Positions 11,617 to 36,760 of a stretch of DNA of 64,000 nucleotides are shown in pieces; within the stretch, counting starts at the first letter, position 1, and the number at the start of each line of letters is the position of its first letter. Source of the DNA: Deltaproteobacteria bacterium (GTDB lineage: Bacteria > Desulfobacterota > Dissulfuribacteria > Dissulfuribacterales > QOAL01); the NCBI GenBank assembly GCA_026986785.1, contig JALSNW010000014.1:62001-126000 (forward strand), read 5' to 3'. Position numbers and translations under genes: made by a program. Below the pieces are notes generated by a model that saw only the letters and a list, made by a program, of their open reading frames with translations, did not search any database and was not told where the DNA came from.

Positions 11617-12688
11617 TCTGTTCTCCTCCCTTCAAAAAGAGACTCGGTACGATTTCAGTCGCCGGTCTGCTCATCTTTTGGATTTTTGCCTGGTAAAGCC
11701 TGACCAGGCACCTGATTTCCAACTCTTTTCCCAGGAGGTGAGCTATTGGGACCCCGAGATGGAAAGGATTGCCCAGAAAAGCCCTCCTGATTTCTCCAAG
11801 TACCCATTCTTCCAAGCCAATCCTGATCGTAGCCAGATCTTGTTGCTCCCACGCCTTGGCAATGGTCTTTAGAGGTTCTGGTAACAGCTTGAGCATAGAA
11901 GCAGGAGAGCCAGCCTTTGCTATGGCGTGCAGCTCTTTTAGATGCAACTTGTTTCCACCTGGATAACTGTAGTTCAGGGCTTCTTCAGGGCTCAGGCCGT
12001 ATATGAAACGAAGCCGGGCTATGTGAGATATGTTCAGCATATCTATGAAGGAGCCAAGGATCTTCTTGGCCTCCTTTCTGTCCTTTTCCCCTCTCAATGC
12101 CTCTGTGGTTGTTGCTATCCTTCTATAACAAGAGATGTCTATGGCCATCTCGAGCGGGAAGAGCCTTCCCTGGGCCTCGAATTGGGGCAAGGCATGATGG
12201 AGCAAGGGGCCGAAAGGGGTTGTCTCAAGCAATTTCACTATCCCTTTGATCCCCTTTTGTGTCCATAGACCCTCCAGTCTCATCTTGGAAAATTCTTCCA
12301 CAGGGTAGAGAAGATGGGCCACATCTGTCTTTTTAAGACCTGAAAAAATGGCCCGTAGAACAATCTTCAGATTTTCTCCCTCGAATCTGGAAAAGAGTGC
12401 CAGTATGAGTTCCTTGGACGTTTGGGATGAAAGGCCGTGGTGTATCTTATGGTAATCGTGGAATAGGGACTTGAAGATCCTCGTCTCAAATGAGAGCGGC
12501 CCCACCTTCCTGTTTTGGATAAGGGGAGATATCCACGGACCATAGAAAGTCGTTGCAAGATACTGTATGAAGCCCTGGCTGTCTTTTACATCTTCGATTA
12601 CGTGCCAGTCAGAGGGCCTGAGCCTTTTGGAGTGCATGGTCCTTGTCTTGGCGTTGACATAAGAGTATTTGATGGCAGCCCTCAACAA
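11600..12688 (-). CDS. atpC: V/A-type ATPase subunit C (AC39/d family)
   Basis: 362 residues, helical, the rotor socket linking the central shaft to the K ring. The N-terminal YSYVNAKTRTMHSKRL is the typical opening of the family (YxYxxARxRxMxSxLL). The remainder shows the three-fold helical repeat composition, and the length is right. It begins 41 bp after subunit H and overlaps the start of subunit I. The gene position, second in the operon, differs from the better known arrangements. Confidence 0.88.
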   Translation of the reverse strand: MLRAAIKYSYVNAKTRTMHSKRLRPSDWHVIEDVKDSQGFIQYLATTFYGPWISPLIQNRKVGPLSFETRIFKSLFHDYHKIHHGLSSQTSKELILALFSRFEGENLKIVLRAIFSGLKKTDVAHLLYPVEEFSKMRLEGLWTQKGIKGIVKLLETTPFGPLLHHALPQFEAQGRLFPLEMAIDISCYRRIATTTEALRGEKDRKEAKKILGSFIDMLNISHIARLRFIYGLSPEEALNYSYPGGNKLHLKELHAIAKAGSPASMLKLLPEPLKTIAKAWEQQDLATIRIGLEEWVLGEIRRAFLGNPFHLGVPIAHLLGKELEIRCLVRLYQAKIQKMSRPATEIVPSLFLKGGEQIVQAS

Positions 12689-12729
12689 TATGCTCCCCTC
12701 CTTATCCGGTATGGATCTCCACCATCTTG

Positions 12730-13056
12730 TTAAAAGAGACCAGCCTCCCGATAAAATCTCTCCATAAATTCAGATAGTACCTCTTTCTTGTGGGCTCCCC
12801 AGAGCCGCTTGAGCCTCTGGCAATAATCCTCGGCCTCTTTTTCTATCTCTGACGCCTGAAGAGAGGCCTGCTCCAATATCTTTGATATCTCCTCTTGCTT
12901 GAATTCATCTATCTTTTTCTGGGCCTCCTGTCTCAAGATCTCGAGATGTTTTTCTACCCCTGTCAACAGGTGTTCGGCCTCCCGCCTGGCTTTGTCCACT
13001 GTTGCCCTGGCATTTTCGTCACAGGTCAATATCCGCTCTATTGCTTCTTTTGCCAT
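12730..13056 (-). CDS. atpH: V/A-type ATPase subunit H/G (peripheral stalk coiled coil)
   Basis: 108 residues, almost entirely one charged helix (ARATVDKARREAEHLLTG, then QEAQKKIDEFKQEEISK), as expected for the stalk partner of subunit E. It is the first gene of the minus-strand ATPase operon. The name rests on composition and position, because short coiled coils of this kind have little conserved sequence. The upstream AT-rich gap (13057-13329), shared with the divergent small gene, must hold the operon promoter, but I cannot pick out convincing -35 and -10 boxes. Confidence 0.8.
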   Translation of the reverse strand: MAKEAIERILTCDENARATVDKARREAEHLLTGVEKHLEILRQEAQKKIDEFKQEEISKILEQASLQASEIEKEAEDYCQRLKRLWGAHKKEVLSEFMERFYREAGLF

Positions 13057-15114: not shown

Positions 15115-16074
15115 TCAGCGAATAGCATGTTTTCTTAGGAGTTTCCAGGACAATACCAGCATTGCCAGGCCAGGATGTCGCCTCATAAAAGGACCAACCT
15201 CCAGATCGAGCCCCGAATGCCTTCTTATCTTCCACAGGGCATAATCCACACCTCCTTTAAAGGTGAAGGTTGCCTTGAAAAGGCGTATGATCGATAGGAG
15301 CTTTCCCTGAATAGTCCTTACCTTCCATGCGGTTTGGCACATCAGGCGCGATCTGCTCCCAATCTTCGTCAGGTATGTGTGTTTTTTTGGCTTTCCTTTT
15401 CTGCAGATCTCATATGGTACGTGTCGGATGGCTGCATTGGTCACAGCCTCTAATACATGGCCCTGCTCTTGCCAAAGCCTTGTCAGGCGCTCGTGTCTCT
15501 CCGGTCGAAGCTCTGCTCCATAACTAAGGCCAAGGCCTGTGAGCCACAACTGTCTGGCTGTAAATTCCCCAGGCATACAGGGTATAGTGGCCTTCAAAAA
15601 GGTGATGATGGAAGAGGCAAGGCAATCTTCAATGACCTTTTCTATCCTTTTGTGCCGACAGTAGATTATGGCTACCGGTTGGCAGAATCGAGCCCAGAAA
15701 TATGAGTGAAACGTCCTATGGGAGGTCATCTTACGAAGATCCCAGAGTGAGATCATGGCATATTTGGCCCTGATCTTTTGATGTTCCCCAAAGGGTAGTT
15801 CCAGGTAGAACACATTTGGAGGCAAAAGCCAATTTATAAAGGCCAGGAAAGGCCTCTTGTATGCGGAGAGATAGCTCTCCACTACTACGAAGAGGTCCAA
15901 AATACCATCTGTCTCGTTGCCAGACTGGAGACATGAGCCATAGTATAAGATCCCCATCACATCCTTGTGATGACGGCTCAAGATCTCATCAACAAGTAGG
16001 CCGATTACAGGAGAAGCCTTGTGACTGTATACATATTTGCGGATTTCACTCAAGAGTTCCGGTGCCTTGTCCAT
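15115..16074 (-). CDS. Tam41-like nucleotidyltransferase (putative CDP-lipid synthase)
   Basis: 319 residues, no membrane helices. Near residue 42 is a nucleotidyltransferase-fold signature, ILYYGSCLQSG followed by GILDLFVVV, with Gly-Ser at 46-47 and an Asp at 60. It continues with LPPNVFYLELP and IRAKYAMISLWDLRK, then a YFWARFCQPVAIIY stretch. This order resembles Tam41/Mmp37, the soluble mitochondrial CDP-diacylglycerol synthase (CTP plus phosphatidic acid). The similarity is judged by eye and is distant. It is the third gene of a tight minus-strand set with a lipid kinase (3-bp gap) and a CDP-alcohol phosphatidyltransferase, which supports a role in making a CDP-activated lipid, here possibly CDP-ceramide. 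Confidence 0.6.
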   Translation of the reverse strand: MDKAPELLSEIRKYVYSHKASPVIGLLVDEILSRHHKDVMGILYYGSCLQSGNETDGILDLFVVVESYLSAYKRPFLAFINWLLPPNVFYLELPFGEHQKIRAKYAMISLWDLRKMTSHRTFHSYFWARFCQPVAIIYCRHKRIEKVIEDCLASSIITFLKATIPCMPGEFTARQLWLTGLGLSYGAELRPERHERLTRLWQEQGHVLEAVTNAAIRHVPYEICRKGKPKKHTYLTKIGSRSRLMCQTAWKVRTIQGKLLSIIRLFKATFTFKGGVDYALWKIRRHSGLDLEVGPFMRRHPGLAMLVLSWKLLRKHAIR

Positions 16075-16077
16075 AAG

Positions 16078-17070
16078 TTACCAGCTCATAGTGATGATCT
16101 GGCCAGCATCTTCTATGATGAAGGGTCTGGCTGGGCCTGGATCTGCCTGGAAGATCTGGCCATCGAGGGCAATTCCCGTATGGGTATAGATCTCTATCCT
16201 ATCTGCATTGAACGAATAGTAGCCGTTTTTTTCTGCCAGTACAGGACTGAATCTGTCAAAGAACATTTGTAAGAGCACGGACAAGAGTTTTTTGGGCCTT
16301 TTTCTTACAGCGGTCAGATGTATGGGGCCCTTATCAGTGGCCCAAAATGGTTGTAGTCCCAGGAAGAGTCTTTCAAGGGTCGTTGAAAGCACCAGGAGAA
16401 AGTCTTCTTCTGGTATAGGCCTTCCATCCACGATGATTTTCATTTTGGACATGTTGTCTGGATCTTGCTTGCTCCCAAGACCTGTCATCAATATCTCAAG
16501 GCCCGATGAGAATATCATGGCCTTGCGTTTCAAGAGTGGAAGGGTAGAGTGTTTTTGGCACATGGCTACGGCATGATAAATCCCTCCAGCCCCAAGAAAC
16601 ATTCCGTATTCTTCTATCTTGTTCAAGTACCCAAGGCGTATTACATGTCTCTTTGCCAAGCTGGTATGGCTGTGGAGTGAATTGTCCAGGATCAATCTGT
16701 GAAGACGTTTCAACGCCTTTTTCTGGCTCCCTTTGATCCCAATATCACTTGCAATGAGATTGGTCGTGCCACCAGGCAAGATGGCAATACGTGGAAGCCT
16801 GTCAAAGGGGCCTTGGCTGAAGAGACCAGTAAGGGTAGCCTGCACAGTTCCATCTCCCCCACTGATTATCAAGATATCTATCTCGTTTTCCGACATGCGT
16901 GCCAACGCACCCTTTATCTCTTCTGGGGTCGTTACCCAGACTACAAGGTCTAAAAATTTTTTGGCAATGCTAAAGAGTTCATTGGCACAGGTCTTGTTTT
17001 TGCCACCAAGAGGATTGATCAATATTCCAGCTTTTAGACCATGTCTACCGTCCTCGTACCAGGTGGTCAT
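16078..17070 (-). CDS. Diacylglycerol-kinase-family lipid kinase (ceramide kinase candidate)
   Basis: 330 residues with the DAGK catalytic domain. It has ILINPLGGKNK at residues 16-26, the ATP-binding GGDGTVQ at 71-77 and ILPGGTTNLIASD near 95. The second half is the beta-sandwich domain of YegS/DgkB-type enzymes. These kinases phosphorylate diacylglycerol, sphingosine or ceramide. The neighbouring sphingolipid genes and the known use of this family as ceramide kinase (CpgB) in Caulobacter make ceramide the favoured substrate, by inference. It lies between the Tam41-like gene and the CDP-alcohol phosphatidyltransferase with gaps of 3 and 6 bp, so it is surely cotranscribed with them. Confidence 0.85.
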   Translation of the reverse strand: MTTWYEDGRHGLKAGILINPLGGKNKTCANELFSIAKKFLDLVVWVTTPEEIKGALARMSENEIDILIISGGDGTVQATLTGLFSQGPFDRLPRIAILPGGTTNLIASDIGIKGSQKKALKRLHRLILDNSLHSHTSLAKRHVIRLGYLNKIEEYGMFLGAGGIYHAVAMCQKHSTLPLLKRKAMIFSSGLEILMTGLGSKQDPDNMSKMKIIVDGRPIPEEDFLLVLSTTLERLFLGLQPFWATDKGPIHLTAVRKRPKKLLSVLLQMFFDRFSPVLAEKNGYYSFNADRIEIYTHTGIALDGQIFQADPGPARPFIIEDAGQIITMSW

Positions 17071-17076
17071 TATTGG

Positions 17077-18276
17077 CTAAACGGTATCATGCCTGGTGAA
17101 CCAGCGTATGGCCAGGCCCTTTTGTTGTGAAGAGAAATCGATTTCTTCGAGCCATGACTTGAGTTGGCCCTTCTTGGTTTTTTGATAAAAGGCATAACCC
17201 AGCCTAATCAGCAGAAAGAGGCTGGTGATTGCAGTCCAGAAGGCAACAAGAAAGAGCCCCCAGTCCGGTCGTCCAGCCAGATAAGAAAGGGTTAGTATTA
17301 TCATGCAAGGGTTGCGTCTTGCCGTTATCAGCCTGAAAAAGGAGTCAAGAGGCCTCCAGCAGAATATGCCAAAGTCTGCTATGAGCCATTGAAAGAGGCC
17401 TTCAACAAGGCGTCCAATAATATAACCTACAAATATGACCCAATATAGGGTGCCCAGGGAGGTATTCAGATGAAACTGTCCTGTTTGTTCCAGGCCCATC
17501 CCCCACAGGAGATACCATATGGGGGGATGAACGATGTCTATGATGTGGTCGAAATAGTGGCCAAATCTACTGGAGGTGACAGTGACGCGGGCAAGTTTGC
17601 CGTCAACGGTATCGAGAAAGGTCATGAGCCAGCCTGCCAGAAGTCCCCAGCCCAGATAGCCCTTTGCAAACAGGTAACCTGCCAGCAGAACGAGGAAAAG
17701 ACCCATAAGTGTTATGTGATTTGGCTGGAGTTTGAGCCGTACGCACTGCTTCACTGCCCACCTGGCTGGTCTCGGCCAAAGCCATTTTGTGACCAGATCG
17801 GTTACCCCTTTATATGACCAGTTGAAAAGTCTTTGTTCAAGCCGTTCCCTGTCTTTGTCATTGACACGAAGTACGAATGGAGGCTCAAATTTTCTCAGCT
17901 TCTGATGAAATGCTACTGAGATGGTCTCCAGGCTATGTGTGGTGACCGATTTGATAGGGCCTGTGGCCTGTCCATTCTCTATGATCTTCACTGCCATGCC
18001 TGCCAGGGTGCCTGGTACATGTATCGCCACTGGGACCTTGTTATGTCTATCCTGGACCAGTAGAAGGGTATCAGGGCTTGCAGCCAGATGCCTGAGTAGT
18101 CTGTCTTCAAAGATATAATCACCGCGCAGGATCAAAACATGGTCTGAAGGCTGGACAACTGAAATATCAGGGATGGTTGTAGCCTGGTCACCGAGTACCT
18201 TTTGGGCACGCTGTCTTGGGGTAAGCCCCCAGATCTTGGTTTGGCTGTCTTTTATGAAATATAGATATAGGCTCAT
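17077..18276 (-). CDS. CDP-alcohol phosphatidyltransferase with N-terminal nucleotidyltransferase-like domain
   Basis: 399 residues. Residues 180-375 are membrane-embedded and contain the complete family motif DG-x2-AR-x8-G-x3-D-x3-D (residues 222-247), so the site should be active. It exchanges CMP of a CDP-linked lipid or alcohol for another alcohol. The N-terminal 140 residues resemble a degraded NTP-transferase domain (SDHVLILRGDYIFED is like the metal-binding strand), but I see no G-x-G-T-R loop. The two-domain layout recalls the bifunctional inositol-phosphate cytidylyltransferase/DIPP synthase of thermophiles, but that identity is not shown. It heads the operon with the lipid kinase and Tam41-like genes. 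Confidence 0.85.
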   Translation of the reverse strand: MSLYLYFIKDSQTKIWGLTPRQRAQKVLGDQATTIPDISVVQPSDHVLILRGDYIFEDRLLRHLAASPDTLLLVQDRHNKVPVAIHVPGTLAGMAVKIIENGQATGPIKSVTTHSLETISVAFHQKLRKFEPPFVLRVNDKDRERLEQRLFNWSYKGVTDLVTKWLWPRPARWAVKQCVRLKLQPNHITLMGLFLVLLAGYLFAKGYLGWGLLAGWLMTFLDTVDGKLARVTVTSSRFGHYFDHIIDIVHPPIWYLLWGMGLEQTGQFHLNTSLGTLYWVIFVGYIIGRLVEGLFQWLIADFGIFCWRPLDSFFRLITARRNPCMIILTLSYLAGRPDWGLFLVAFWTAITSLFLLIRLGYAFYQKTKKGQLKSWLEEIDFSSQQKGLAIRWFTRHDTV

Positions 18277-18321: not shown

Positions 18322-19353
18322 ATGGTCTCGATATCCCAACAAAATAAAACCTTGTTCAAGTCACGATCCTCAAAAGATATTGCCTTTTCACAAAGAGATA
18401 GTGTTACCATTGTACACCTTTCTGATCTGCATCTCGCCTGTACAGATGGCATTTCTTGGCATCAGCTCCTCAACAAGAGGATACTTGGCTATCTCAGATG
18501 GAGGCTGGGCCGCAGAAGGGAATTTGACTATAGGATTTTTGCCATACTTGAACGTGAACTGCAACAGATAAAACCAGATCACGTCATAATAACAGGAGAT
18601 CTTACCCATTTGGGCCTTCCTTCTGAATTCAAGGCAGTGTCAAAATGGCTCGAAAAGCTTGGCCCATCTGAAAGGATAACCATCGTTCCTGGCAATCATG
18701 ACACCTATGTTGAGACAGACTGGGCCCAGACCTTTTTCATGTGGGAGGGATATATCCTGCCATACTCTTCTTATGAAGGCCGGTTGCCCCCTCCAGGCCT
18801 TGAGGATGTCTTCCCGATACTTCACCAGGTGAAAAATGTGGCAATAATAGGGGTCTCTACAGCCGTTCCCTGCCCTTGGCATTTAGCCATAGGGGAGGTG
18901 GGTACAGGCCAGTTACGCAAGCTTGAGGCCATGCTGGAAGAAGCGGCTTCAATGGGCTGTTTTAGAATAATTGCCTTGCACCATCCCCCTGGGCTGGGAT
19001 CGATAGGCTCTCGCAAGGCCCTAAAAGATGCAGGAAGACTTGTAAGGATCTTGGAAGATCGTGGATGTGAACTCATTCTTCATGGCCATAGCCATCAGAG
19101 TCTTTGCTATACACTAAAGGGGCCCCGGGGAGACATCCCTGTAATAGAGGCGCCGTCTGCCCTCTGTGTTCGTTCATCGAAAAGCCGCAAGGCAAGGTAT
19201 TTCACTTGTAAGATAGTGGGGTCTGGGCAGAAGGGTTGGAAATGTAGGGTGGAAGATCGCATCTTCTCCAATTTTCAAAAGGGTTTTGTCTCTGTGAAGC
19301 AGGAGGAATTTGTGATTGCAGGCAGTAGTCATCGCTCAGGCAGGAGATCTTAG
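18322..19353 (+). CDS. Calcineurin-like metallophosphoesterase
   Basis: 343 residues. All metal-binding motifs are present in order: HLSDLHL (D-x-H), IITGDLTH (GD), VPGNHDTY (GNHD), ALHHPP and LHGHSHQ (GHxH). It therefore should be an active binuclear phosphoesterase. It has no signal peptide. The tail after residue 300 is poorly conserved. It starts 45 bp from the divergent CDP-alcohol phosphatidyltransferase gene, so the two share a regulatory gap. Dephosphorylation of a phospholipid intermediate is a reasonable guess from context. Its 3' end overlaps convergent lptG by 18 bp. The ATG at 18322 lacks a good ribosome site, so the exact start is uncertain. Confidence 0.85.
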   Translation: MVSISQQNKTLFKSRSSKDIAFSQRDSVTIVHLSDLHLACTDGISWHQLLNKRILGYLRWRLGRRREFDYRIFAILERELQQIKPDHVIITGDLTHLGLPSEFKAVSKWLEKLGPSERITIVPGNHDTYVETDWAQTFFMWEGYILPYSSYEGRLPPPGLEDVFPILHQVKNVAIIGVSTAVPCPWHLAIGEVGTGQLRKLEAMLEEAASMGCFRIIALHHPPGLGSIGSRKALKDAGRLVRILEDRGCELILHGHSHQSLCYTLKGPRGDIPVIEAPSALCVRSSKSRKARYFTCKIVGSGQKGWKCRVEDRIFSNFQKGFVSVKQEEFVIAGSSHRSGRRS

Positions 19354-20406
19354 CCTTATTACTGCCAAGGTAGATATGAACAAAAAGGGGATAAAGGCCA
19401 AAACACATGGCCTTAGGCCAAGGAGTAAGCCCACATGCATGGTGATCTGATCGAAAAAGTAGAGGGCAATACCTATGAAAGATCCTATGGTCATACGAAG
19501 GCCTGCACCCACCTTCCTTGTGGAGCCCATGACGAAGCCAAGGGCCAGTATGGCCATGGCTCCAGTGCTGAGGGGCTGGCTAACCTTTCTCCATAGTGCC
19601 AGCCTATAACTGTCTGCATTTTGACCGCTCTTTTCAAGGGCTATGATATAGTCGCTAAGATCCTTGGCTGATAGGCTTTCAGGGGGAAGTTCAAGTACTG
19701 TGACCTGGTCTCGGCTCAGGAAGGGGCCAAGGGAAAGTTCCTTTACTGTCCTTGTTTTTATGTCCATGCCACTTACCAATTTTTCTGTTACATCATGCAA
19801 TATCCACATGTCTCTGTCTGAAATAGAGGCTGTCTTGGCATGCAAGAAATTTTTTAGGCCGCCCTTACCATCAAATGAAAAGATATCGATGCCTTCTGCT
19901 GTACTTTTCCCTATGAGCTTGGTTACATGAATGAATGAGTCATCTCTTTTGGCCCAGAAGCCCTTCTGGGTAAATGTAACTCCCTTGGAGGATAGGGCCT
20001 TTGCCCGCATCAGCCTGGCACTTTGTTCCATGGGGGGGACAATGAATTCACCAGAAAGGATGAACGCCACCATTATCAGGCCACATGTACCAAGAACAGA
20101 TAGGCTTATTCTTGGATTGGAGATACCAGAGGCCTCCATGGCTACGAGTTCAAAGCGGTCGGCCATGCGTCCAAGGGCTGCTATTGCCGCCAGTAACGAG
20201 GTGATAGGTGCAAGGTCCAGAAACCTTTTGGGCGAGGTGAGAAATATGAACAAAAGGGCATCTTGAAGGGTGTAAGAACCCTTCCCAACCGAATCGAGTT
20301 CTGACAAGAGTTGGAAGAAGCTAAAGAGGATCACTGGGATAATGATGATCAATAAAAAAAATTTCAAAAAATTTTTACCAATATACAGATCTATAATCTT
20401 CATCAT
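19336..20406 (-). CDS. lptG: LPS-export ABC permease LptG
   Basis: 356 residues, YjgP/YjgQ family. There are three N-terminal helices with the coupling region near LGRMADRFELVAMEASGIS (the usual E-A-G contact helix to LptB), then a periplasmic beta-jellyroll (about 125-255) and three C-terminal helices. Paired with LptF, it extracts lipid from the outer leaflet of the inner membrane, driven by LptB. It follows lptF by 16 bp. Assignment of G versus F rests on order and helix sequences and could be swapped. Its position beside sphingolipid genes raises the chance that the substrate is not only LPS. Confidence 0.88.
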   Translation of the reverse strand: MMKIIDLYIGKNFLKFFLLIIIIPVILFSFFQLLSELDSVGKGSYTLQDALLFIFLTSPKRFLDLAPITSLLAAIAALGRMADRFELVAMEASGISNPRISLSVLGTCGLIMVAFILSGEFIVPPMEQSARLMRAKALSSKGVTFTQKGFWAKRDDSFIHVTKLIGKSTAEGIDIFSFDGKGGLKNFLHAKTASISDRDMWILHDVTEKLVSGMDIKTRTVKELSLGPFLSRDQVTVLELPPESLSAKDLSDYIIALEKSGQNADSYRLALWRKVSQPLSTGAMAILALGFVMGSTRKVGAGLRMTIGSFIGIALYFFDQITMHVGLLLGLRPCVLAFIPFLFISTLAVIRLRSPA

Positions 20407-20422: not shown

Positions 20423-21514
20423 TCATGAAGTCCTGCTGGTACGCCTCTTACGGTATATCCGTGACAGGTCTTCGTACCAAAAGAGAACAACGAAGAGCAA
20501 AAAAAGAGCTATCTGGCTCCACCACAGGCCGGGAAAGGTTGCTATGATCCCTTGGGCAACCCATTTTTTTGCTATCGCAGTAAGGTTGTAATAGGCGGCG
20601 AAAAGAAGTATTGCCAAGGGTACCTTGGCATATTTGCCCTGACGTGGAGACGACTTGCTAAGGGGAAGGGCCATAAGTGCAAGTAGCACAGTAGATACAG
20701 GGGTGATGAGCCTCCACTGGAGCTCAGCCACCTCCTGAAGGTTGTTGGAGTGGAGTAGGCGTTTCAAGGGGGCGGCCTTTACCCTGTCTTCCTTGACTAT
20801 CTGTCCTGGTTCCAGGGACAGTTCCGACTGCTCGAATTGGAGGATTACCTCTTTGTCACCGCTATTGGAGAATTCATAGTCCTTGCCATGATAGAGTATG
20901 AGGATGGGCAGGGCCAATTTCTTGTCGAAGAATTGCCTGGCATGTTTGGCATATATGACCTGCAGACTGTCTTTGCGTCTGGTCTGGATAAATATGTCCT
21001 CGGCCTGATTTTTCCTATTGTTTACCCTCTGGGCAAAGATGACCCTTTTGCCATGGTTGATTTCATAAAAGATTCCTGCCTTCATCCTCGTCAGGTCAAA
21101 GCTGGCCTTTGCTTTTGCTTTCATGGTAAAGAATTGATCCCATGCCCACGGTCTTATATAGAGAGAAAAACAGGCAACAAGTATGGCAATCATCACGGAG
21201 GTGATAAACACGGCCTTTACTATCCTGACAGGACTGATGCCACAGGCAAACATGGCTGTCATCTCTCCGTCTCTGTAGAGACGGCTAAGGGTCAGGACAA
21301 CAGAAAGATAAAGGGTAGTGGGCAAGAGGATCTCCATGGCAACAGCAATCCTGAAAAAAACCAGTATCATTACAGTAGCACCGGGCAGTTCCCCTTGGGC
21401 TGCTGCTGCCCAGTACCTTGCAGCGATAAAGCTGCCATAGATGAAAATCAGGATACTGCAGATCACAGCAGTAGGCTTCAATATCTCCCGTATGATGTAA
21501 CGTTCTGCAATCAT
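20423..21514 (-). CDS. lptF: LPS-export ABC permease LptF
   Basis: 363 residues, same family and topology as LptG. The first helix follows IAERYIIREILKP, the coupling segment is TLSRLYRDGEMTAMFACGIS, and the periplasmic domain includes FYEINHGKRVIFAQ. The C-terminal helices end in a basic tail (RIYRKRRTSRTS). It lies 115 bp downstream of a cytidylyltransferase gene on the same strand and 16 bp before lptG. Only one LptF/LptG pair is visible, against two LptB-LptC pairs. Confidence 0.88.
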   Translation of the reverse strand: MIAERYIIREILKPTAVICSILIFIYGSFIAARYWAAAAQGELPGATVMILVFFRIAVAMEILLPTTLYLSVVLTLSRLYRDGEMTAMFACGISPVRIVKAVFITSVMIAILVACFSLYIRPWAWDQFFTMKAKAKASFDLTRMKAGIFYEINHGKRVIFAQRVNNRKNQAEDIFIQTRRKDSLQVIYAKHARQFFDKKLALPILILYHGKDYEFSNSGDKEVILQFEQSELSLEPGQIVKEDRVKAAPLKRLLHSNNLQEVAELQWRLITPVSTVLLALMALPLSKSSPRQGKYAKVPLAILLFAAYYNLTAIAKKWVAQGIIATFPGLWWSQIALFLLFVVLFWYEDLSRIYRKRRTSRTS

Positions 21515-21629: not shown

Positions 21630-22430
21630 TTAATAGACGCTTCCCTTTGCATGGACAAACCCCTTCTGTGCATATATGTTGTGGCCATTGCTGGTCTGCC
21701 CATCAAGCTCTATTGCCGAGACAATTGGCTCAGCCAGCTTGAGATCCTTGGGATAGTCAATTTCGCACCACAAAAGCCCAGTGATGGAACAGGTCATGAC
21801 CGGTGTGTTGGGGGCGATCTGATCTATTACAGAAAGATACCACTTTTTGTTATATTCAGGTTGATCGATGGCCTGTCTCAGGGCTGAACGGAAGATTTCT
21901 GGGCCTCGGCCCCTGAAATATATGAGGCCAATGGATTCAGCAGATACTTGTTCGGCTGGCAGTTGTTTCCCAATCCTCATGAGCCTTCCAGCTTTTGTTA
22001 TCACCTTCATGTCGTCTGAATCGTATTTCTTTTTCGAGCTCACTGTGACTGTAATTGGCGAAGGAGGAGAGGCGAGCAGTTTGGCCAACACAGCAGGCTC
22101 AAAAAGGGTGTCTCCGTTCAAGAGTATGAAATCCTGATCCATTTCATGGCGAACCTTCCAGCAGCTGACGAGATTGTCAGCAGTTGCATAGTCGGGATTA
22201 TAGAATGTCCTTATCCTATATTGGCCAAGACGTCTTTGCACCAACTGCTCCACCTTGTGGGCTCCATAACCTGTAACCACGACTATATCATCGATATGCT
22301 CTCTTGTTAGGGTTTCTACCTGCCATTCCAATAGGGTCTTACCACATATATCAAGGAGGCACTTAGGGGTCTTGGAGGTAAGAGGCAGGAGTCTTTTCCC
22401 CTGACCTGCACTGAGTATTATCACCTTCAT
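21630..22430 (-). CDS. Cytidylyltransferase of the phosphocholine/phosphoglycerate type
   Basis: About 266 residues. The N-terminal MKVIILSAGQGKRLLPLT is the NTP-binding loop of the sugar-1-phosphate/LicC-like nucleotidyltransferases, followed by PKCLLDICGKTLLEWQ. The metal-binding LLNGDTLFEP and the later SAESIGLIYFRG and RWCEIDYP-like LLWCEIDYPKDL fit the LicC-like subgroup annotated as phosphocholine cytidylyltransferase. A member of this group, CpgD, is reported to make CDP-activated phosphoglycerate for ceramide head groups in Caulobacter. AGGAG stands 8 bp before the ATG at 22430; an ATG 21 bp upstream is less likely. It may be cotranscribed with lptF-lptG. Confidence 0.8.
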   Translation of the reverse strand: MKVIILSAGQGKRLLPLTSKTPKCLLDICGKTLLEWQVETLTREHIDDIVVVTGYGAHKVEQLVQRRLGQYRIRTFYNPDYATADNLVSCWKVRHEMDQDFILLNGDTLFEPAVLAKLLASPPSPITVTVSSKKKYDSDDMKVITKAGRLMRIGKQLPAEQVSAESIGLIYFRGRGPEIFRSALRQAIDQPEYNKKWYLSVIDQIAPNTPVMTCSITGLLWCEIDYPKDLKLAEPIVSAIELDGQTSNGHNIYAQKGFVHAKGSVY

Positions 22431-22577
22431 GAAGCTTGCTCCTGAAAACAAAACAGTGTTGACATCTGAATTTATCTGTAATCAATATAGATTCACTGGT
22501 TACAAAAGTCCAACTCTTCATCTCGGATCATGGAGTTCACAATTTTACCGAAGATGTGAGGAGGAGGGCAGGCATAT
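22431..22577. other. Intergenic region between divergent cytidylyltransferase and small ORF
   Basis: First part of the 431-bp gap between the minus-strand cytidylyltransferase and the plus-strand ceramide-synthase-like gene. TTGACA occurs at 22459-22464 on the plus strand, but no good -10 lies at 16-18 bp (AATATA at 22484 is 19 bp away). I see no repeat or RNA structure. Confidence 0.35.
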
Positions 22578-25823: not shown

Positions 25824-26380
25824 TTTCCTATCTTGTTTGGCAGGCATCAATGCCCATAAGCGATGCAACTAAGTAAAAATATGGTTTTTTCCCTTTGGGG
25901 CTTACCTTTATTCTTGTTACTCTTGTTAATGTTTATTAATATTGCCTCATAATCTATAAGTATCGGTCCTTGCAGGAGAGGATATTTTTCGCGCAAGAAC
26001 CTTATAGAAGCTTATACCCATATGGCCTGGAAGCCTATATTTTGTTTTGGTGAAGGCAACTTCCCAGGCTATTGAACAGGAGGACATCATACATTTTAAG
26101 CTTAATCCAGAATAACGGTTTTTTCCTCTTTTTTATTGAGACCCTAAACTTAATTACAAAATAAAGAGTTAGAAAATTTTTATTCTTCACATCCCTTGTT
26201 GTAGGGTTGGGACAGTGAATTTCTATATCCACATGAATGGTTTTATGGACGCAGGGTTATGTATAATATTTTCAGATAGATGTCCTGCCTTGTCGCGGTT
26301 GAGCCTTACCGGGTTCTCATTATTAGTATTCGAACAAGTTAAATGAAAAATCCAATTATTGAAAGGTATTGATTTATAAT
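25824..26380. other. Long AT-rich intergenic region before the acyl ligase
   Basis: 557 bp, clearly more AT-rich than its neighbours, between divergent genes. It has two perfect TATAAT boxes on the plus strand (26262-26267 and 26375-26380, the second abutting the ATG), neither with a good -35. It also has an imperfect inverted repeat, GGTCCTTGC at 25965-25973 and GCAAGAACC at 25993-26001 (one mismatch). Short minus-strand frames here lack ribosome sites and protein-like composition. I see no RNA gene or attachment site. Confidence 0.5.
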
Positions 26381-28183
26381 ATGAAATCATCTCAAGCAGT
26401 TGTTTCTTTTCCATGCGGTAGTGAGACAGGATTGAAAGATACCACCAGACTGGCTCCAACGCCAAGCGAGAACAACATCCATGTCAGGTATGCGGATTTC
26501 GGAAGCCTTGCTGAGGCCCTGGATTATGCAGCAAATGGGCGGACAGGATACAATTTTTATACGAGAAGAGGCAGTTTGTATGCCTCCATTCCCTATGCAA
26601 GGCTCCGTCATGATGCGCGTATCTTGGCACGAAAACTTCTGTATTTGAGGGTTCCCAGGGGATCTCATGTAGCCATCGTCGCCAATACCCATCCAGAATT
26701 CGTGAGATTTTTTTTCGCATGTCAGTATGCAGGTCTAATACCAGTGCCCCTACCCATTGTCATGCACCTAAACGGGGCAGAGGCCTATGTGCGTCAACTC
26801 GCAAGGCTCCTGGATATTTGTAAAGCCAGCCTGGCAGTGGCTACAGGCGAATTTTTCAGCTACCTGACAAAGGCAGTCAGTAGTCAGAAGTTGGACCTGG
26901 AGTTCATTGGCAGGCCTGAGGATTTCTATGCCCTGCCTGAATCCAGCGTCCAATTGAAGCCTCTTGAACAGGGTGAGTTGGCTTATCTCCAGTTTACTTC
27001 AGGCAGTACCCGCTTCCCCAAGGGGGTAATGATTACACAAGAGGCTGTTCTCAGTAACCTCCATGCCATAACAAGGCATGGCATAGGTTGCAGAAATGGG
27101 GATCGAGCAGTTTCGTGGCTACCTTTCTATCATGACATGGGCCTTGTGGGGCTTGTCCTATCTACCATGGCCTCACAGCTTTCAGTGGATTTTTTCAGTA
27201 CCAGTGATTTTGCCATGAGGCCAGGGCTTTGGCTCAAACTGATATCGGACAATAGGGCAAGTATTTCTTTCAGCCCTCCTTTTGGTTATGAACTTGCCGC
27301 ATTGCGCCTAAGAGACAGTGATGTGGAACGTTATGATCTTTCCATGTGGAGAATAGCTGGCGTCGGTGCCGAGATGATAAGACCAGAGCTGCTGGAGCGC
27401 TTTGCAAGTAGGCTCAAGCCATGTGGATTTGATCCAGGTGCGTTTTTATCGTGTTATGGCATGGCTGAATGTTCTTTGGCCGTGGCATTTGCCCATCGGA
27501 ATATTGGTATAGAGGTCGATTGTGTGGATGCTGAGCGTCTGGCCACCTACAGGGAGGTAGTGCCTGTTGGACAGATAAAACCAGGGACGAAGACCCAGAC
27601 CAGGGTGAAGACCTTTGTGAAGTGTGGCAAACCACTGCCAGGCTTTGAGGTAGAGATCCGGGATCCATCCGGCAGGCCAGTCCCTGCTGGTAAATGTGGC
27701 ATTCTATATCTCAAGGGACCCAGTGTAATGTCAGGGTATCTCGGGGATGCAGAAGCCACTGGTAATGTCCTTGGTGAAGACGGCTGGTTGAATACTGGGG
27801 ATACGGCCTATCTGTCTGGGGACGATATTGTGATAACTGGGCGTTCCAAGGACCTGATCATAATCAATGGGAGAAATATCTGGCCCCAGGATATAGAATA
27901 TCTGGCTGAATCCCTTGATGAGGTCAGGATAGGTGATGCCTGTGCCTTTGCCCTTCAAGATGAACGGGGTAGGGAGAGGGCTGTACTCGTCATACAGTGT
28001 AAGAACGGGGACAGATCGGCAGACAAGACCTTGACAAGTACCCTCAGAAAGCTGGTGCTCAGGGAACTTGGGATAGATTGCCATGTTGTCGTGGTCCCCA
28101 AAAATACCCTGGTGAGGACAACCTCTGGCAAGCCATCACGGAGTGCTACGAGAAAGGTATGTATTGAAAAGGGCCTGATCTAA
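26381..28183 (+). CDS. aasR: Fatty acyl-AMP ligase / acyl-ACP synthetase of the sphingolipid locus
   Basis: 600 residues, ANL superfamily of the FAAL type. The AMP-binding core YLQFTSGSTRFPKGVMIT, SWLPFYHDMGLVG, SCYGMAECSL, WLNTGDTAYL and GRSKDLIIINGRNIWPQDIE is complete. The C-terminal Lys region SGKPSRSATRK is also present. It activates a fatty acid as acyl-AMP and probably loads it onto the dedicated ACP encoded 4 kb downstream. The ATG at 26381 sits 14 bp after GAAAGG; an in-frame TTG at 26369 is the alternative, and an in-frame stop just upstream excludes longer forms. In Caulobacter such a ligase is among the genes needed for ceramide synthesis. Confidence 0.88.
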   Translation: MKSSQAVVSFPCGSETGLKDTTRLAPTPSENNIHVRYADFGSLAEALDYAANGRTGYNFYTRRGSLYASIPYARLRHDARILARKLLYLRVPRGSHVAIVANTHPEFVRFFFACQYAGLIPVPLPIVMHLNGAEAYVRQLARLLDICKASLAVATGEFFSYLTKAVSSQKLDLEFIGRPEDFYALPESSVQLKPLEQGELAYLQFTSGSTRFPKGVMITQEAVLSNLHAITRHGIGCRNGDRAVSWLPFYHDMGLVGLVLSTMASQLSVDFFSTSDFAMRPGLWLKLISDNRASISFSPPFGYELAALRLRDSDVERYDLSMWRIAGVGAEMIRPELLERFASRLKPCGFDPGAFLSCYGMAECSLAVAFAHRNIGIEVDCVDAERLATYREVVPVGQIKPGTKTQTRVKTFVKCGKPLPGFEVEIRDPSGRPVPAGKCGILYLKGPSVMSGYLGDAEATGNVLGEDGWLNTGDTAYLSGDDIVITGRSKDLIIINGRNIWPQDIEYLAESLDEVRIGDACAFALQDERGRERAVLVIQCKNGDRSADKTLTSTLRKLVLRELGIDCHVVVVPKNTLVRTTSGKPSRSATRKVCIEKGLI

Positions 28184-29336: not shown

Positions 29337-30260
29337 ATGGCTTCTGTAGTTTCAGTTACTGGGGCTACTGGTTTTATAGGCAGTGCAGTTGTCAGGAGGC
29401 TCTTGGTCGCAGGGATCAGGGTCAGGGCGCTTGTCAGATCATGCTCTACTGAAAAATGTTGGGGACATCCTGGGCTGGAGTGGATCAAGGGCCAGCTTGG
29501 GGACTTGGACAGCCTTCAAGGGCTAATAAAGGGTTCGGATGCAGTGATTCATTGCGCTGGACTGGTACGTGGCATCAAGAAAGAGGATTTTGAGAGAATA
29601 AATTCAGAGGCCGTTAAGGCCCTGGCCGAGCTTTGTTCCATACAGCCTTGCCCTCCGAGATTCCTTTTGATCTCCTCCCTTGCAGCAAGACATCCTGAAT
29701 TGTCCTTTTATGCCTTGAGCAAGAAAAAGGGGGAAGAGGCCTTGACCACCTTTTCTGCCCGTCTTTCCTGGACCATACTGAGACCTCCTGCCGTTTACGG
29801 TCCAGGTGACAGGGAGCTTAGGCCTGTTTTTAGGTGTATTCGACTGGGTGTGCTTCCATGTCTTGGTGCGGGTTCTAACCGTTTCTCTCTTCTCCATGTC
29901 CACGACATGGAAGAGGCCGTGCTTTCTTGGTTCAACAATAGCCCTGAAAGTGGGCAAATCTATGAACTCCACGATGGGGTGCCTGGTGGGTATTCCTGGG
30001 ATGACGTAGCTGCCTTGGCAGAGCGTATTTTCAAGAGACGGCTATTAAGGCTCAGGATACCCTTTCCGGTATTGGCAGCAATTGGTCATCTCAATCTTGC
30101 AATGGCCCGTCTTCATGGCAATCCCCCCATGCTGACCCCAGGAAAGGCCAGGGAACTTGCATATCCAGATTGGGTCTGTGATAATACACGAATTCGTCAG
30201 GATACTGGCTGGGCACCAAGGATTATGCTAAAAGATGCCCTGGTTAGTGGAATGATTTGA
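29337..30260 (+). CDS. cerR: NAD-dependent epimerase/dehydratase family, ceramide reductase candidate (CerR)
   Basis: 307 residues, extended short-chain dehydrogenase. The Rossmann motif is VTGATGFIGSAVV (G-x2-G-x2-G), and the catalytic pair is in FYALSKKKGE (Y-x3-K), preceded by LISSLAA with the catalytic Ser. The C-terminal part (RLLRLRIPFPVLAAIG) resembles 3-beta-HSD-like lipid reductases. In Caulobacter the related CerR reduces the 3-keto group of the ceramide intermediate. Here it precedes the ACP and serine palmitoyltransferase genes, supporting the same role. GGGAAAGG lies about 6 bp before the ATG. Confidence 0.83.
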   Translation: MASVVSVTGATGFIGSAVVRRLLVAGIRVRALVRSCSTEKCWGHPGLEWIKGQLGDLDSLQGLIKGSDAVIHCAGLVRGIKKEDFERINSEAVKALAELCSIQPCPPRFLLISSLAARHPELSFYALSKKKGEEALTTFSARLSWTILRPPAVYGPGDRELRPVFRCIRLGVLPCLGAGSNRFSLLHVHDMEEAVLSWFNNSPESGQIYELHDGVPGGYSWDDVAALAERIFKRRLLRLRIPFPVLAAIGHLNLAMARLHGNPPMLTPGKARELAYPDWVCDNTRIRQDTGWAPRIMLKDALVSGMI

Positions 30261-30360: not shown

Positions 30361-30606
30361 ATGAAGGCTGATAAAGTTGTATTGGAAAAGATAGTGGAGA
30401 TATTACAGCCACATGTGTCAGGTGGAGTAGAGATAACCCCAGCCATGGACATAGAGAGCGATCTGGCAATCGATTCTCTCAAGTCCATGGAAATACTTGC
30501 TAATCTCGAGGATGCCTTTGATCTTTCTATACCTATAAACGTACTTTCTGAGGTGCGTACTGTAGAAGATCTGGCCATTCAGGTACAAAAGCTTATTGAG
30601 GCTTGA
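30361..30606 (+). CDS. acpR: Acyl carrier protein of the sphingolipid locus
   Basis: 81 residues, the normal ACP length. The phosphopantetheine attachment motif is DLAIDSLKSMEIL with Ser39. It has the usual four-helix pattern and acidic character. It differs from housekeeping ACPs in lacking the exact DSLD motif (DSLK here), and it sits away from fatty-acid genes, so it is a specialised ACP. It likely carries the acyl chain from the ligase to serine palmitoyltransferase, whose gene starts 4 bp after its stop. Confidence 0.9.
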   Translation: MKADKVVLEKIVEILQPHVSGGVEITPAMDIESDLAIDSLKSMEILANLEDAFDLSIPINVLSEVRTVEDLAIQVQKLIEA

Positions 30607-30610
30607 AATA

Positions 30611-31792
30611 ATGGGGCTTTTTGACAAGTTTAAAAATATTTCAACCTCTATAGCCGTCTTGGAAGACAAGTGCAGTGCATTTTTTCATATAGTGGTTGAA
30701 GACCTTTTGTCCAGCACCGAGGCTGTAATTGATGGAAGAAAGGTGATATTGGCTGGCACCAACAACTATCTCGGTCTTCCGCTTCGACAAGAGTGTATCA
30801 AGGCTGCCTGTGATGCCATTCAAAGGGAGGGCACTGGCACCACAGGTTCCAGGATGGCCAATGGGACCTATTCGTCCCATATCGAGTTTGAAAAAGATCT
30901 GTCAGATTTCTTTGGACGATCTACTACCATAGTCTTTACCACTGGTTACAGTGCCAATCTGGCCATGCTATCCACCCTTGTAGGACCCAGGGATACAGTG
31001 CTCTTGGATGCTGATTGCCATGCAAGTATCTATGATGGCTGTCGGTTGGGAGGGGTACAGGTGTTCAGATTCCATCACAATGACGTGGAAGACCTGGAAA
31101 AGCGGTTGAAAAGACTCAAGAGTCAAGATGGGGAGGTGCTCATTGTGGTGGAAGGCCTCTACAGTATGTTGGGTGACAGGGCGCCCCTGGCGGATATAGT
31201 TGCCCTCAAAGAAAAATATCATGCCTACCTTTTGGTGGATGAGGCACATTCCCTTGGTGTACTGGGAGAGAAGGGTAGGGGGCTGGCAGAAGAGGCTGGT
31301 GTCGAGGCCGAGGTCGATTTTATAGTGGGTACCTTCAGTAAGAGTCTCGGGTCGGTGGGTGGTTTTTGCACCAGCAATCATGAAGAATTGGAGATCATAC
31401 GCTATGCCAGCCGCCCGTATGTATTTACGGCATCCTCTTCACCAGCAAATATTGCTGCAGCAAAGGCTGCCTTGTCCATAATTCGTTCAGAGCCCCAATT
31501 AAGGGTGAGACTTTGGGAAAATGCCACTGCCCTGTATGGGCGTTTGAAAGACATGGGGTTCAAGGTGGGTCCAGAGCCGAGTCCCATCATACCAGTCAGG
31601 TGTGACAGAATTGAAGAGGCGTTTAGGATATGGAATGGCCTTTTGGAAAATGGGGTATACGTAAACATGGTTCTTCCCCCTGCCACTCCTGATGGTACAG
31701 CCCTTTTGAGATGCAGCCTGAGCGCAGCCCACTCGCGGCAACAGGTAGAAAAGATCGCCCAGGCCTTTGGGGCTGTCCAATCTCCGGTTTAG
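30611..31792 (+). CDS. spt: Serine palmitoyltransferase (alpha-oxoamine synthase family)
   Basis: 393 residues, PLP-dependent. It condenses serine with an acyl thioester to 3-ketosphinganine, the committed sphingolipid step. Visible features are NNYLGLPL, GTGTTGSRMANGT, LLDADCHASIYDG, LVDEAHSLGVLG (PLP-contact Asp and His) and VGTFSKSLGSVGG with the PLP-lysine K244. The TFSKS lysine motif favours Spt over biotin-pathway BioF or Kbl, as does the adjacent specialised ACP. The ATG at 30611 has GAGG at about 9 bp; a TTG at 30596 inside the ACP gene is less likely. Confidence 0.9.
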   Translation: MGLFDKFKNISTSIAVLEDKCSAFFHIVVEDLLSSTEAVIDGRKVILAGTNNYLGLPLRQECIKAACDAIQREGTGTTGSRMANGTYSSHIEFEKDLSDFFGRSTTIVFTTGYSANLAMLSTLVGPRDTVLLDADCHASIYDGCRLGGVQVFRFHHNDVEDLEKRLKRLKSQDGEVLIVVEGLYSMLGDRAPLADIVALKEKYHAYLLVDEAHSLGVLGEKGRGLAEEAGVEAEVDFIVGTFSKSLGSVGGFCTSNHEELEIIRYASRPYVFTASSSPANIAAAKAALSIIRSEPQLRVRLWENATALYGRLKDMGFKVGPEPSPIIPVRCDRIEEAFRIWNGLLENGVYVNMVLPPATPDGTALLRCSLSAAHSRQQVEKIAQAFGAVQSPV

Positions 31793-31834: not shown

Positions 31835-33547
31835 ATGAAATTCATTATCAGTTTTCTCAAAAGATATCCCTTGCAGAGTATGCTCACACTTTTTGCAATG
31901 CTTTTTGCAGGGATTGCCGAAGGTTTTGGCATGTCCATGCTCTTGCCCCTTCTCAGTCTTTCAGCAGCAGGAGCGGACAAGGTGGAAAAGGCCCACAAGG
32001 CAGGCTCTGCCCTTGAAAGGGCCATCTCTGGTTTTTTTTCCTTCCTGGGCATGGAGCCCACAATCGGTCTTTTGTTAATCATCTTTGTGATCAGCATAAT
32101 AATCAAGGTGACATTGGTCCTTCTGGCCAACAGAAAAGTGGGTTACATGGTGGCAAATGTGGCTACAGACCTTCGGCTTTCATTATTGCAGGCGATATTC
32201 AATAGCAGTTGGAGCTATTACGTGCGTCAGCCAGCCGGAAGTATAACAAATGCCTTTGCCACCGAGGCTACCAGATCGGCCGATGCCTATCTCTTTGGCA
32301 TGCGCCTTATAGCCATGCTCATGAATGCCGTTGTCTACACCTGTGTTGCCCTCATGGTTGCCTGGAAGGCCACGGTGATGGCTGTGATTCTTGGTTCTGG
32401 CATACTCTATGTGTTGAGGTTCATGGTGAAAAAGGCCAAGATGGCAGGGCGTGACCAGACGCTGCTATTGAAGTCTCTTCTCTCCTTTCTTACAGATATC
32501 CTGCTGTCCATAAAGCCTCTGAAGGCAATGGCCAGGGAATATGCTGCTGAGCGTATACTCCAACAGAAAACCTTGGCCCTTAGGAGCGCTCTTCAGAAAC
32601 AGGTATTTAGCAAAGAGGCTCTTCGTGCCCTCCAGGAGCCCCTTACCACCATCTTTTTTGCTACGGGTCTATATATTGCCTTGGTCGTTCTGGATCTGCC
32701 TCTGTCAAATGTGTTGGTAATGGTGTACATGCTGGCAAAGATCCTCAAGGCCCTTCAACGGGCCCAAAAAGAGCACCAATCCATGGTCATTGCAGAAAGC
32801 GCCTATTGGTCATTGCTCTCCAGGATCCAGGCAGCAGAAGAGCAGAGGGAGGAATTCAAGGGCAGGAGGAGCCCCAAATTCGAGCATTTCATTTCTCTCC
32901 AAGGCGTCACCTTTGGTTACGGAGAAAGACCGCTGCTTCATGGGCTGGACATGGAGATCAAGAAGGGTTCCTTCACTGCATTGATTGGTCCGTCAGGTGC
33001 AGGCAAGACAACTGTTGTGGATATCATAACAGGTTTGATTCATCCCCAAGCTGGCAGGGTTTTGATCGATGATCTGTCCCTGGATGAGATCGATCTCGTC
33101 CAGTGGCGCAAGAAGATTGGCTATGTACCTCAGGAGACCCTTCTTCTCCATGACACGGTCTTTTTCAATATTACCCTGGGAGACGAGACGATAGCTGAGG
33201 CTGATGTGATAGAGGCCTTGAAAAAGGCTGGGGCTTGGGAGTTTGTGGCACAGTTGCCAAAAGGTATCCACAGCGTTGTGGGAGAAAGGGGAGGGCTCAT
33301 CTCCGGAGGGCAGAGACAGAGAATCACGATAGCGCGTGCCCTTGTAAAAGATCCTTGTCTTCTCATAATGGATGAGGCCACGAGTGCTCTGGATCCTGAG
33401 ACAGAATTAGAGATATGCCGCACATTGAGAGGCTTGAGGGACTATGTCACCGTGTTGGCCATCTCGCATCAGGAGACCATCCTCAAAGAGGCCGATACTG
33501 CTTTCAAGCTTGAGCACGGTATGGCAAGAAAGGTCGGGAGGCCATGA
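31835..33547 (+). CDS. MsbA-like ABC exporter (candidate sphingolipid flippase)
   Basis: 570 residues, fused permease plus ATPase half-transporter. About six membrane helices occupy residues 1-310. The ATPase has Walker A IGPSGAGKTT, Q-loop YVPQET, signature ISGGQRQRI, Walker B LLIMDEATSALD and the switch His in AISHQE. It should dimerise and flip or export a lipid or lipid-linked glycan across the inner membrane. It starts 42 bp after spt on the same strand and overlaps the following glycosyltransferase by 4 bp, so a sphingolipid cargo is suggested by position only. It is shorter than E. coli MsbA and could serve another lipid. Confidence 0.88.
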   Translation: MKFIISFLKRYPLQSMLTLFAMLFAGIAEGFGMSMLLPLLSLSAAGADKVEKAHKAGSALERAISGFFSFLGMEPTIGLLLIIFVISIIIKVTLVLLANRKVGYMVANVATDLRLSLLQAIFNSSWSYYVRQPAGSITNAFATEATRSADAYLFGMRLIAMLMNAVVYTCVALMVAWKATVMAVILGSGILYVLRFMVKKAKMAGRDQTLLLKSLLSFLTDILLSIKPLKAMAREYAAERILQQKTLALRSALQKQVFSKEALRALQEPLTTIFFATGLYIALVVLDLPLSNVLVMVYMLAKILKALQRAQKEHQSMVIAESAYWSLLSRIQAAEEQREEFKGRRSPKFEHFISLQGVTFGYGERPLLHGLDMEIKKGSFTALIGPSGAGKTTVVDIITGLIHPQAGRVLIDDLSLDEIDLVQWRKKIGYVPQETLLLHDTVFFNITLGDETIAEADVIEALKKAGAWEFVAQLPKGIHSVVGERGGLISGGQRQRITIARALVKDPCLLIMDEATSALDPETELEICRTLRGLRDYVTVLAISHQETILKEADTAFKLEHGMARKVGRP

Positions 33548-34731: not shown

Positions 34732-34759
34732 CCAAAGAGACATAAGAGTAAGAAAGATC

Positions 34760-36757: not shown

Positions 36758-36760
36758 CGG

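Follow-up and report, generated by a model that had tools for sequence, protein, structure and literature searches.

Three genes for a probable sphingolipid head-group pathway

The DNA analysed here is a stretch of 64,000 nucleotides (the window) from a genome of 2.59 Mb that is 99% complete. Our study region, positions 15115-18276, holds three minus-strand genes with ATG starts and no internal stops, separated by spacers of 6 and 3 bp. The coordinates, strand and spacing given in the first-pass annotation of this DNA were confirmed. The three genes are as follows.

15115..16074, minus strand: nucleotidyltransferase of the Tam41 fold, cpgC-type, proposed as a cytidine triphosphate (CTP):ceramide-1-phosphate cytidylyltransferase; 319 amino acids (aa); profile, structure and invariant residues
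16078..17070, minus strand: lipid kinase of the diacylglycerol kinase (DAGK) type, cpgB-type ceramide kinase; 330 aa; PF00781, E 4.2e-16
17077..18276, minus strand: cytidine diphosphate (CDP)-alcohol phosphotransferase, cpgA-type, with a degenerate cytidylyltransferase-like N-terminal domain; 399 aa; PF01066, E 1.6e-10

We consider it likely that, in this relative of Thermodesulfatator (Thermodesulfobacteriota), the trio is a cpgABC operon serving a pathway of the CPG/CPG2 type, for ceramide phosphoglycerate (CPG). The trio sits inside a complete sphingolipid locus. The ceramide synthesis set (spt, acpR, cerR, aasR and cerS) accompanies the head-group genes in the window, and these include the kinase, the Tam41-type protein, the CDP-alcohol transferase, a phosphoesterase, and both CofC-like and CpgD-like nucleotidyltransferases. 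The remaining genes of the locus are listed here.

18322..19353, plus strand: metallophosphoesterase, CC_1158-type; PF00149, E 3e-17; divergently oriented beside the transferase or kinase, an arrangement that is conserved
19336..20406, minus strand: LptG/LptF-family permease; PF03739, E 3e-66
20423..21514, minus strand: LptF/LptG-family permease; PF03739, E 6e-66
21630..22451, minus strand: nucleoside triphosphate (NTP) transferase, cpgD-type, proposed as a CTP:phosphoglycerate cytidylyltransferase; 9/11 published CpgD ligand-contact residues
22862..24004, plus strand: bacterial ceramide synthase-like GNAT acyltransferase (bCerS); cluster conservation, weak PF00583
23998..24822, plus strand: MobA/CofC-like nucleotidyltransferase, CC_1153-type; PF12804, E 1e-12; adjoins bCerS in most loci
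26369..28183, plus strand: AMP-binding protein resembling acyl-ACP synthetases, aasR-type; PF00501, E 1e-54
29337..30260, plus strand: short-chain dehydrogenase/reductase (SDR)/epimerase-like reductase, cerR-type; PF01370, E 7e-26
30361..30606, plus strand: acyl carrier protein (ACP), acpR-type; 81-aa open reading frame with a DSLKS motif, placed between the SDR and Spt
30596..31792, plus strand: serine palmitoyltransferase (Spt); NF047599, 607 bits (cut-off 500)
31835..33547, plus strand: ABC exporter adjoining spt, possibly a lipid flippase; PF00005 and PF00664

In Caulobacter crescentus, cpgA, cpgB and cpgC are CCNA_01217-01219 (CC_1159-1161), and cpgD is CCNA_01210 (CC_1152). The published locus comprises the CC_1158 phosphoesterase, the CC_1159 CDP-alcohol transferase, the CC_1160 ceramide kinase, CC_1161 (with a CDP-diacylglycerol (CDP-DAG)-synthase InterPro domain), the CC_1162 Spt, the CC_1154 ceramide synthase (CerS), the CofC-like CC_1153, the nucleotidyltransferase CC_1152 and LptF2/LptG2 (PMC11324152). 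The genes of the window recur near the Tam41-like gene in about 120 loci (a few counted twice) from Thermodesulfobacteriota, Nitrospirota, Pseudomonadota and one Calditrichota record. The cluster is also carried by a cultured member of the Desulfobulbaceae, Desulfoprunum benzoelyticum (L063). The Pseudomonadota locus L187 is ordered AasR-CerR-Spt-TAM-kinase-transferase-phosphoesterase-LptFG-CerS-CofC-CpgD, where TAM is the Tam41-like gene. By this order and by its 11 CpgD residues, L187 appears to bridge the window and Caulobacter, and it serves as a stand-in for the Caulobacter proteins.

Co-occurrence with ceramide synthesis genes

Homologues of the Tam41-like protein were gathered from 22 of 297 genomes of the window's phylum, 13 of 19 family genomes and 27 of 398 Pseudomonadota genomes; at least 498 relatives were confirmed in named genomes, of which 80 were kept. 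Far from being common where spt and bCerS are lacking, the gene tracked both. In Pseudomonadota, bCerS occurred in 27/27 Tam41-like-positive genomes compared to 16/371 negative ones (p 4.5e-31; this and the next two p values treat genomes as independent). In the window's phylum, Spt above 470 bits was found in 13/22 positive and 1/275 negative genomes (p 4e-16), and bCerS above 390 bits in 14/22 and 2/275, respectively (p 1e-16). Exceptions were mostly remote members (~24-33% identity; families f18, f25 and f37) or fragmented genomes (G001 and G135). The proposal that these genes serve phosphosphingolipid head-group synthesis is thus upheld by locus content, by co-occurrence and by the Caulobacter equivalents.

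In many families of Thermodesulfobacteriota that lack the Tam41-like gene, a GNAT protein (250-300 bits to bCerS) directly adjoins an alpha-oxoamine synthase that scores 300-340 bits against Spt, for example at G007:C20:52680-55001, G010:C1:36517-38782 and G217:C9:9632-11950. This is a second kind of pair, possibly for 1-deoxyceramide lipids, which have been linked to Desulfobacterota (PMC11334938).

The Tam41-like family forms a distinct branch

The first-pass annotation described the first protein as soluble and Tam41-like, and both descriptions hold. Its own match to PF09139 (E 0.003, 17.4 bits) is below the curated Pfam cut-off of 24 bits. Among its homologues, 19 of 26 matched PF09139 (best E 4e-10), and the relative in G296 cleared the cut-off at 24.6 bits. 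A profile of the 26 sequences matched Schizosaccharomyces pombe Tam41 (SpTam41, 6ig2; E 4e-8) and, less strongly, Firmicutes Tam41 7ecd (E 6e-4), and a phmmer search of the PDB with one homologue did not match Tam41. The AlphaFold model had a predicted local distance difference test (pLDDT) score of 89.9, and its top five Foldseek matches were all Tam41 chains (E 6e-9 to 5e-8), followed by aminoglycoside nucleotidyltransferases (8e-5). VIA-align gave Z 19.2 to 7ecd (227 residues, 3.1 Å) and 17.1-17.3 to SpTam41 structures (17.3 for 6ig4), with the next family at only 9.8. Profile and structure comparison together rule out a chance Pfam match as the source of the assignment. The likeness to Tam41 is real, and firm from the family evidence, and the family is a distinct branch.

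Twenty diverse members, including that of L187, share the invariant residues Y45, G46, S47, D60, P86, K104, R129, F130, Y185, E188 and R190, and further R264, K267, T271, Y278, K282, R285 and G288. The window protein has no transmembrane-like stretch, and its C-terminal 81 residues are basic (17 K/R, 3 D/E); SpTam41 binds membranes via a basic amphipathic C-terminal helix (PMC7018664). Within the family, the protein groups with that of a Thermodesulfatator metagenome-assembled genome. Open frames of 600 aa in G001 and G056 suggested fusion proteins, but the extra length was only stop-free upstream sequence, the kinase being a separate adjoining gene.

CdsA was present in 17 of the 18 genomes searched. 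This rules out the Tam41-like protein as the housekeeping CDP-DAG synthase and means that phosphatidate is probably not its substrate.

Remote Tam41-like genes (24-28% identity; L047:2774-6011, L049 and L048:9645-10625) were also seen. In family f18 the gene lies behind two tandem DAGK-like genes, with no sphingolipid genes nearby, and in family f37 it stands alone. These proteins may have a different substrate.

The kinase

The Pfam matches listed above and the motif given below agree with the first-pass calls of a kinase of the DAGK type and of a CDP-alcohol transferase whose catalytic motif is intact. The kinase contains the GGDG motif, lacks the eukaryotic CxxxCxxC motif, and is the only match in its own genome at E<=1e-6. 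Identity between families is 31-37%. G161 seemed to lack the kinase, but the gene was found elsewhere within the same cluster. The Caulobacter equivalent, CpgB, is a proven ceramide kinase that also phosphorylates DAG in vitro, and deletion of cpgB leaves Caulobacter phosphatidate unchanged (PMC10331486).

The in vitro activity on DAG would suit a reading in which the trio is a spare pathway for glycerophospholipids, made up of a DAG kinase, a CDP-DAG synthase and a phosphatidylinositol (PI)- or phosphatidylglycerol (PG)-phosphate synthase, and glycerophospholipid members do exist in all three families. We regard this as very improbable, given the near-exclusive co-occurrence of the trio with bCerS and Spt, the presence of CdsA in 17 of the 18 genomes searched, the six other CDP-alcohol transferases encoded in the window's own genome, and the unaltered phosphatidate of the cpgB deletion.

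The transferase is separable from the kinase and Tam41-like protein

The catalytic motif D-x2-DG-x2-AR-x8-G-x3-D-x3-D is intact in the transferase, as DTVDGKLARVTVTSSRFGHYFDHIID, and is also found in its homologues; D222, D225, G226, A229, R230, G239, D243 and D247 are invariant in 35 of these. The structure model (pLDDT 89.7) best matched AF2299 (Z 22.5 over 317 residues), followed by IPCT-DIPPS (Z 21.4) and PI-phosphate (PIP) synthases (Z ~20). The nearest NCBIfam models were archaetidylinositol- and PI-phosphate synthases, with scores far under cut-off. GxGxR was not found in residues 1-170, the cytidylyltransferase-like N-terminal domain, which is probably inactive. On the modelled structure, the fold leaves the CDP donor undecided.

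Gene pairing was counted in the 71 loci whose sequence extended 8.5 kb or more on the side of the kinase. Of these, 66 had the kinase, 42 the transferase and 30 the CpgD-like gene. The transferase occurred in 29 of the 30 loci with a CpgD-like gene; the exception, L132, stops at a contig edge, and its relative L136 has the transferase. This pairing was significant by Fisher's test in all 71 loci (p 1.5e-8), after removal of duplicates (4e-8) and after thinning at 60% identity (2.7e-5, 42 loci). At the genome level, 25 of the 51 genomes that carry the Tam41-like gene were devoid of this transferase family, which rules out an obligate three-gene pathway; the same loss has been noted in Zymomonas mobilis (PMC11324152). 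Since the transferase is missing from so many genomes and pairs with the CpgD-like gene, the kinase and Tam41-like protein are a core module, and the transferase and CpgD an add-on module. The add-on pairing is expected if the transferase uses CDP-glycerate to add a second head group.

These counts bear on the linear scheme of the first-pass annotation, in which the kinase and a CDP-ceramide synthase are followed by the transferase, using CDP-ceramide as donor and a free alcohol, as PG-phosphate and PI-phosphate synthases do with CDP-DAG. Its first part stands, in that CpgB, the counterpart of the kinase, phosphorylates ceramide (PMC10331486) and the next protein has the Tam41 fold. Its last step fits the tight operon, the CDP-DAG-using PIP synthases among the near folds, the nearest NCBIfam models and the absence of CPG in a CC_1159/1160 double mutant (PMC11324152). 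However, AF2299 and IPCT-DIPPS match the transferase equally well or better than PIP synthases do, the kinase and Tam41-like gene stay paired where the transferase is absent, and the transferase tracks the maker of a soluble CDP-alcohol. In addition, CpgA is assigned in print to the second head-group step, CPG to CPG2, using CDP-glycerate (PMC12275187, PMC13228409). The linear route is disfavoured, and we rate it as rather unlikely.

Desulfobacterota and Nitrospirales include loci in which the Tam41-like gene has a same-family CDP-alcohol transferase on each side (L034:8246-11698, L076, L099, L100 and L110). These loci possibly add more than two head-group units.

The CpgD-like protein and the identity of the head group

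Caulobacter CpgD (CCNA_01210) is a proven phosphoglycerate cytidylyltransferase (PMC12275187), and its structures define residues contacting CTP and glycerate (G12, R16, T88, N90, T93, N110, G111, M147, K161, S170 and W201; PMC13228409). Nine of these 11 residues are identical in the window protein, and the cytosine-contacting T88 and T93 are replaced (T88A and T93S). The L187 protein has all 11, with identical numbering.

The same enzymes could add an alcohol other than glycerate in Thermodesulfobacteriota. The two threonine replacements would allow for this, as would the divergence of the head-group enzymes (seen in the kinase) and the two transferases in several loci (those named above). 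Yet all five glycerate-side residues (N90, N110, M147, K161 and S170) are kept in the window, and 35 homologues share M147, K161 and S170 without exception, so that a different head group seems unlikely to us.

A proposed route to CPG and CPG2

We propose the following route for the window. Spt, ACP, the reductase, the acyl-ACP synthetase and bCerS would make ceramide, and the DAGK-type kinase, from the proven activity of CpgB, would convert it to ceramide-1-phosphate (C1P). The Tam41-fold protein, docked at the membrane via its basic C-terminus, would transfer cytidine monophosphate (CMP) from CTP onto C1P to give CDP-ceramide. Glycerate or phosphoglycerate would then displace CMP to give CPG, catalysed by the Tam41-like protein itself or by a partner, with the phosphoesterase acting afterwards if needed. 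The NTP transferase at 21630-22451 would make CDP-glycerate, as shown for CpgD, from which the CDP-alcohol transferase would add a second phosphoglycerate to give CPG2. This last step has genetic support in Caulobacter, and the transferase fold family includes enzymes with soluble CDP-alcohols as substrate. LptF/LptG may carry the lipid to the outer membrane, as suggested for Caulobacter.

By analogy with Tam41, the Tam41-like protein probably makes CDP-ceramide. In Caulobacter, a CC_1161 mutant makes no CPG, while CC_1152 or CC_1153 mutants accumulate it (PMC11324152). Because both candidates for glycerate activation are thus dispensable for CPG, it would be the lipid that is activated for the first step, and lipid-side activation by a Tam41-type enzyme appears to be the simplest chemistry for CPG. 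With the transferase missing from half of the genomes, glycerate would be joined by the Tam41-like protein or by a partner outside the transferase family. On balance, we lean towards a dedicated, soluble, Tam41-derived CDP-ceramide synthase in at least Thermodesulfobacteriota, Nitrospirota, Pseudomonadota and the Calditrichota record, which together with the kinase would suffice for the first head group without this CDP-alcohol transferase family.

Could the protein instead skip cytidylylation and link C1P directly to glycerate, or to an NDP-glycerate supplied by the CofC-like enzyme? An earlier mass-spectrometric proposal, as cited in PMC11324152, was that CpgC attaches glycerate to C1P, and the family's own invariant C-terminal block (R264-K267-T271-Y278-K282-R285) would leave room for such chemistry. 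Energetically, a direct link formed with neither partner activated is unfavourable (PMC11324152), CPG is still made by the CC_1152 and CC_1153 mutants, and the protein folds like an enzyme that uses CTP. We consider direct joining doubtful.

Several points weigh against synthesis of CDP-ceramide and CPG as proposed. We found a published activity measurement for no Tam41-like protein of this family, and identified no enzyme to use CDP-ceramide where the CDP-alcohol transferase is absent. The link to Caulobacter is through gene order, families, published annotation and published residue numbers rather than protein alignment, and the head group of the window organism is deduced from its genes alone. 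The genetics of CC_1159 by itself are thin, a CC_1159/1160 double deletion having been used (PMC11324152).

The idea of CDP-ceramide is not new. Although the term itself did not occur in the literature searched, an NDP- or CDP-activated ceramide from CC_1161 was suggested in 2024 (PMC11324152), and papers from 2025-2026 still call the mechanism of the CpgC step unidentified. Apparently new are the comparison of folds with Tam41, the division of the genes into two modules, and the occurrence of the set in Thermodesulfobacteriota and Nitrospirota. The CPG-type gene set, previously surveyed in alpha-, beta- and gamma-proteobacteria (PMC11324152), is thereby extended to thermophilic and sulfate-reducing groups and to Nitrospirota. 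The predicted Tam41 fold, the transferase-free pairs of kinase and Tam41-like gene, and the way in which the transferase accompanies a maker of CDP-glycerate reduce the CpgC gap to one testable reaction, that of CTP with ceramide-1-phosphate. If the proposal is true, sphingolipids have their own counterpart of CDP-DAG. The Caulobacter end product, CPG2, supports survival without lipopolysaccharide.

Other genes in the neighbourhood

The gene at 24858-25868 encodes a protein without a Pfam match that recurs beside the CofC-like gene in Desulfobulbaceae sphingolipid clusters. A second protein, at 34598-35938, has no Pfam or NCBIfam match and recurs beside the ABC exporter, Spt or a GT4 gene, with 62-69% identity in closer loci; it is a candidate transferase for head groups or polymers. 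LptC-like and LptB-like genes lie at 36029-37330, ~4 kb past spt. They may be second copies that serve only sphingolipid export, as LptC2 does in Caulobacter. Genes for V-type ATPase-like subunits (9631-13056) adjoin the sphingolipid locus.

Comparison with known systems

The Tam41-like protein shares with the mitochondrial CDP-DAG synthase Tam41/TAMM41 and with Firmicutes Tam41 7ecd the overall fold (Z 17-19), the YGS motif, a conserved middle region and a basic C-terminus. It differs in having only 15-16% identity to them and a sub-threshold Pfam match; unlike Tam41/TAMM41, members of the family share an invariant C-terminal block of their own, coexist with CdsA and accompany sphingolipid genes. 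Similarly, the transferase resembles AF2299 and IPCT-DIPPS in its two-domain architecture, matched over ~320 residues, but its N-terminal domain lacks GxGxR, and its CDP-alcohol would come from a CpgD-like protein encoded separately. The kinase is like CpgB in its DAGK catalytic family, its GGDG motif, its lack of the eukaryotic cysteine motif and its place next to the Tam41-like gene, whereas its ceramide substrate is suggested by context, and the family models used do not split it from YegS-type kinases.

As a whole, the locus has in common with Caulobacter CC_1152-CC_1165 the three trio families together with Spt, AasR, CerR, ACP, CerS, the CofC-like protein, the phosphoesterase and LptF/G, and the active-site residues of CpgD are conserved. 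In contrast, the window belongs to another phylum, identities are low (~30% between its Tam41-like protein and that of the Caulobacter-like L187), and the blocks of genes are ordered differently along the locus.

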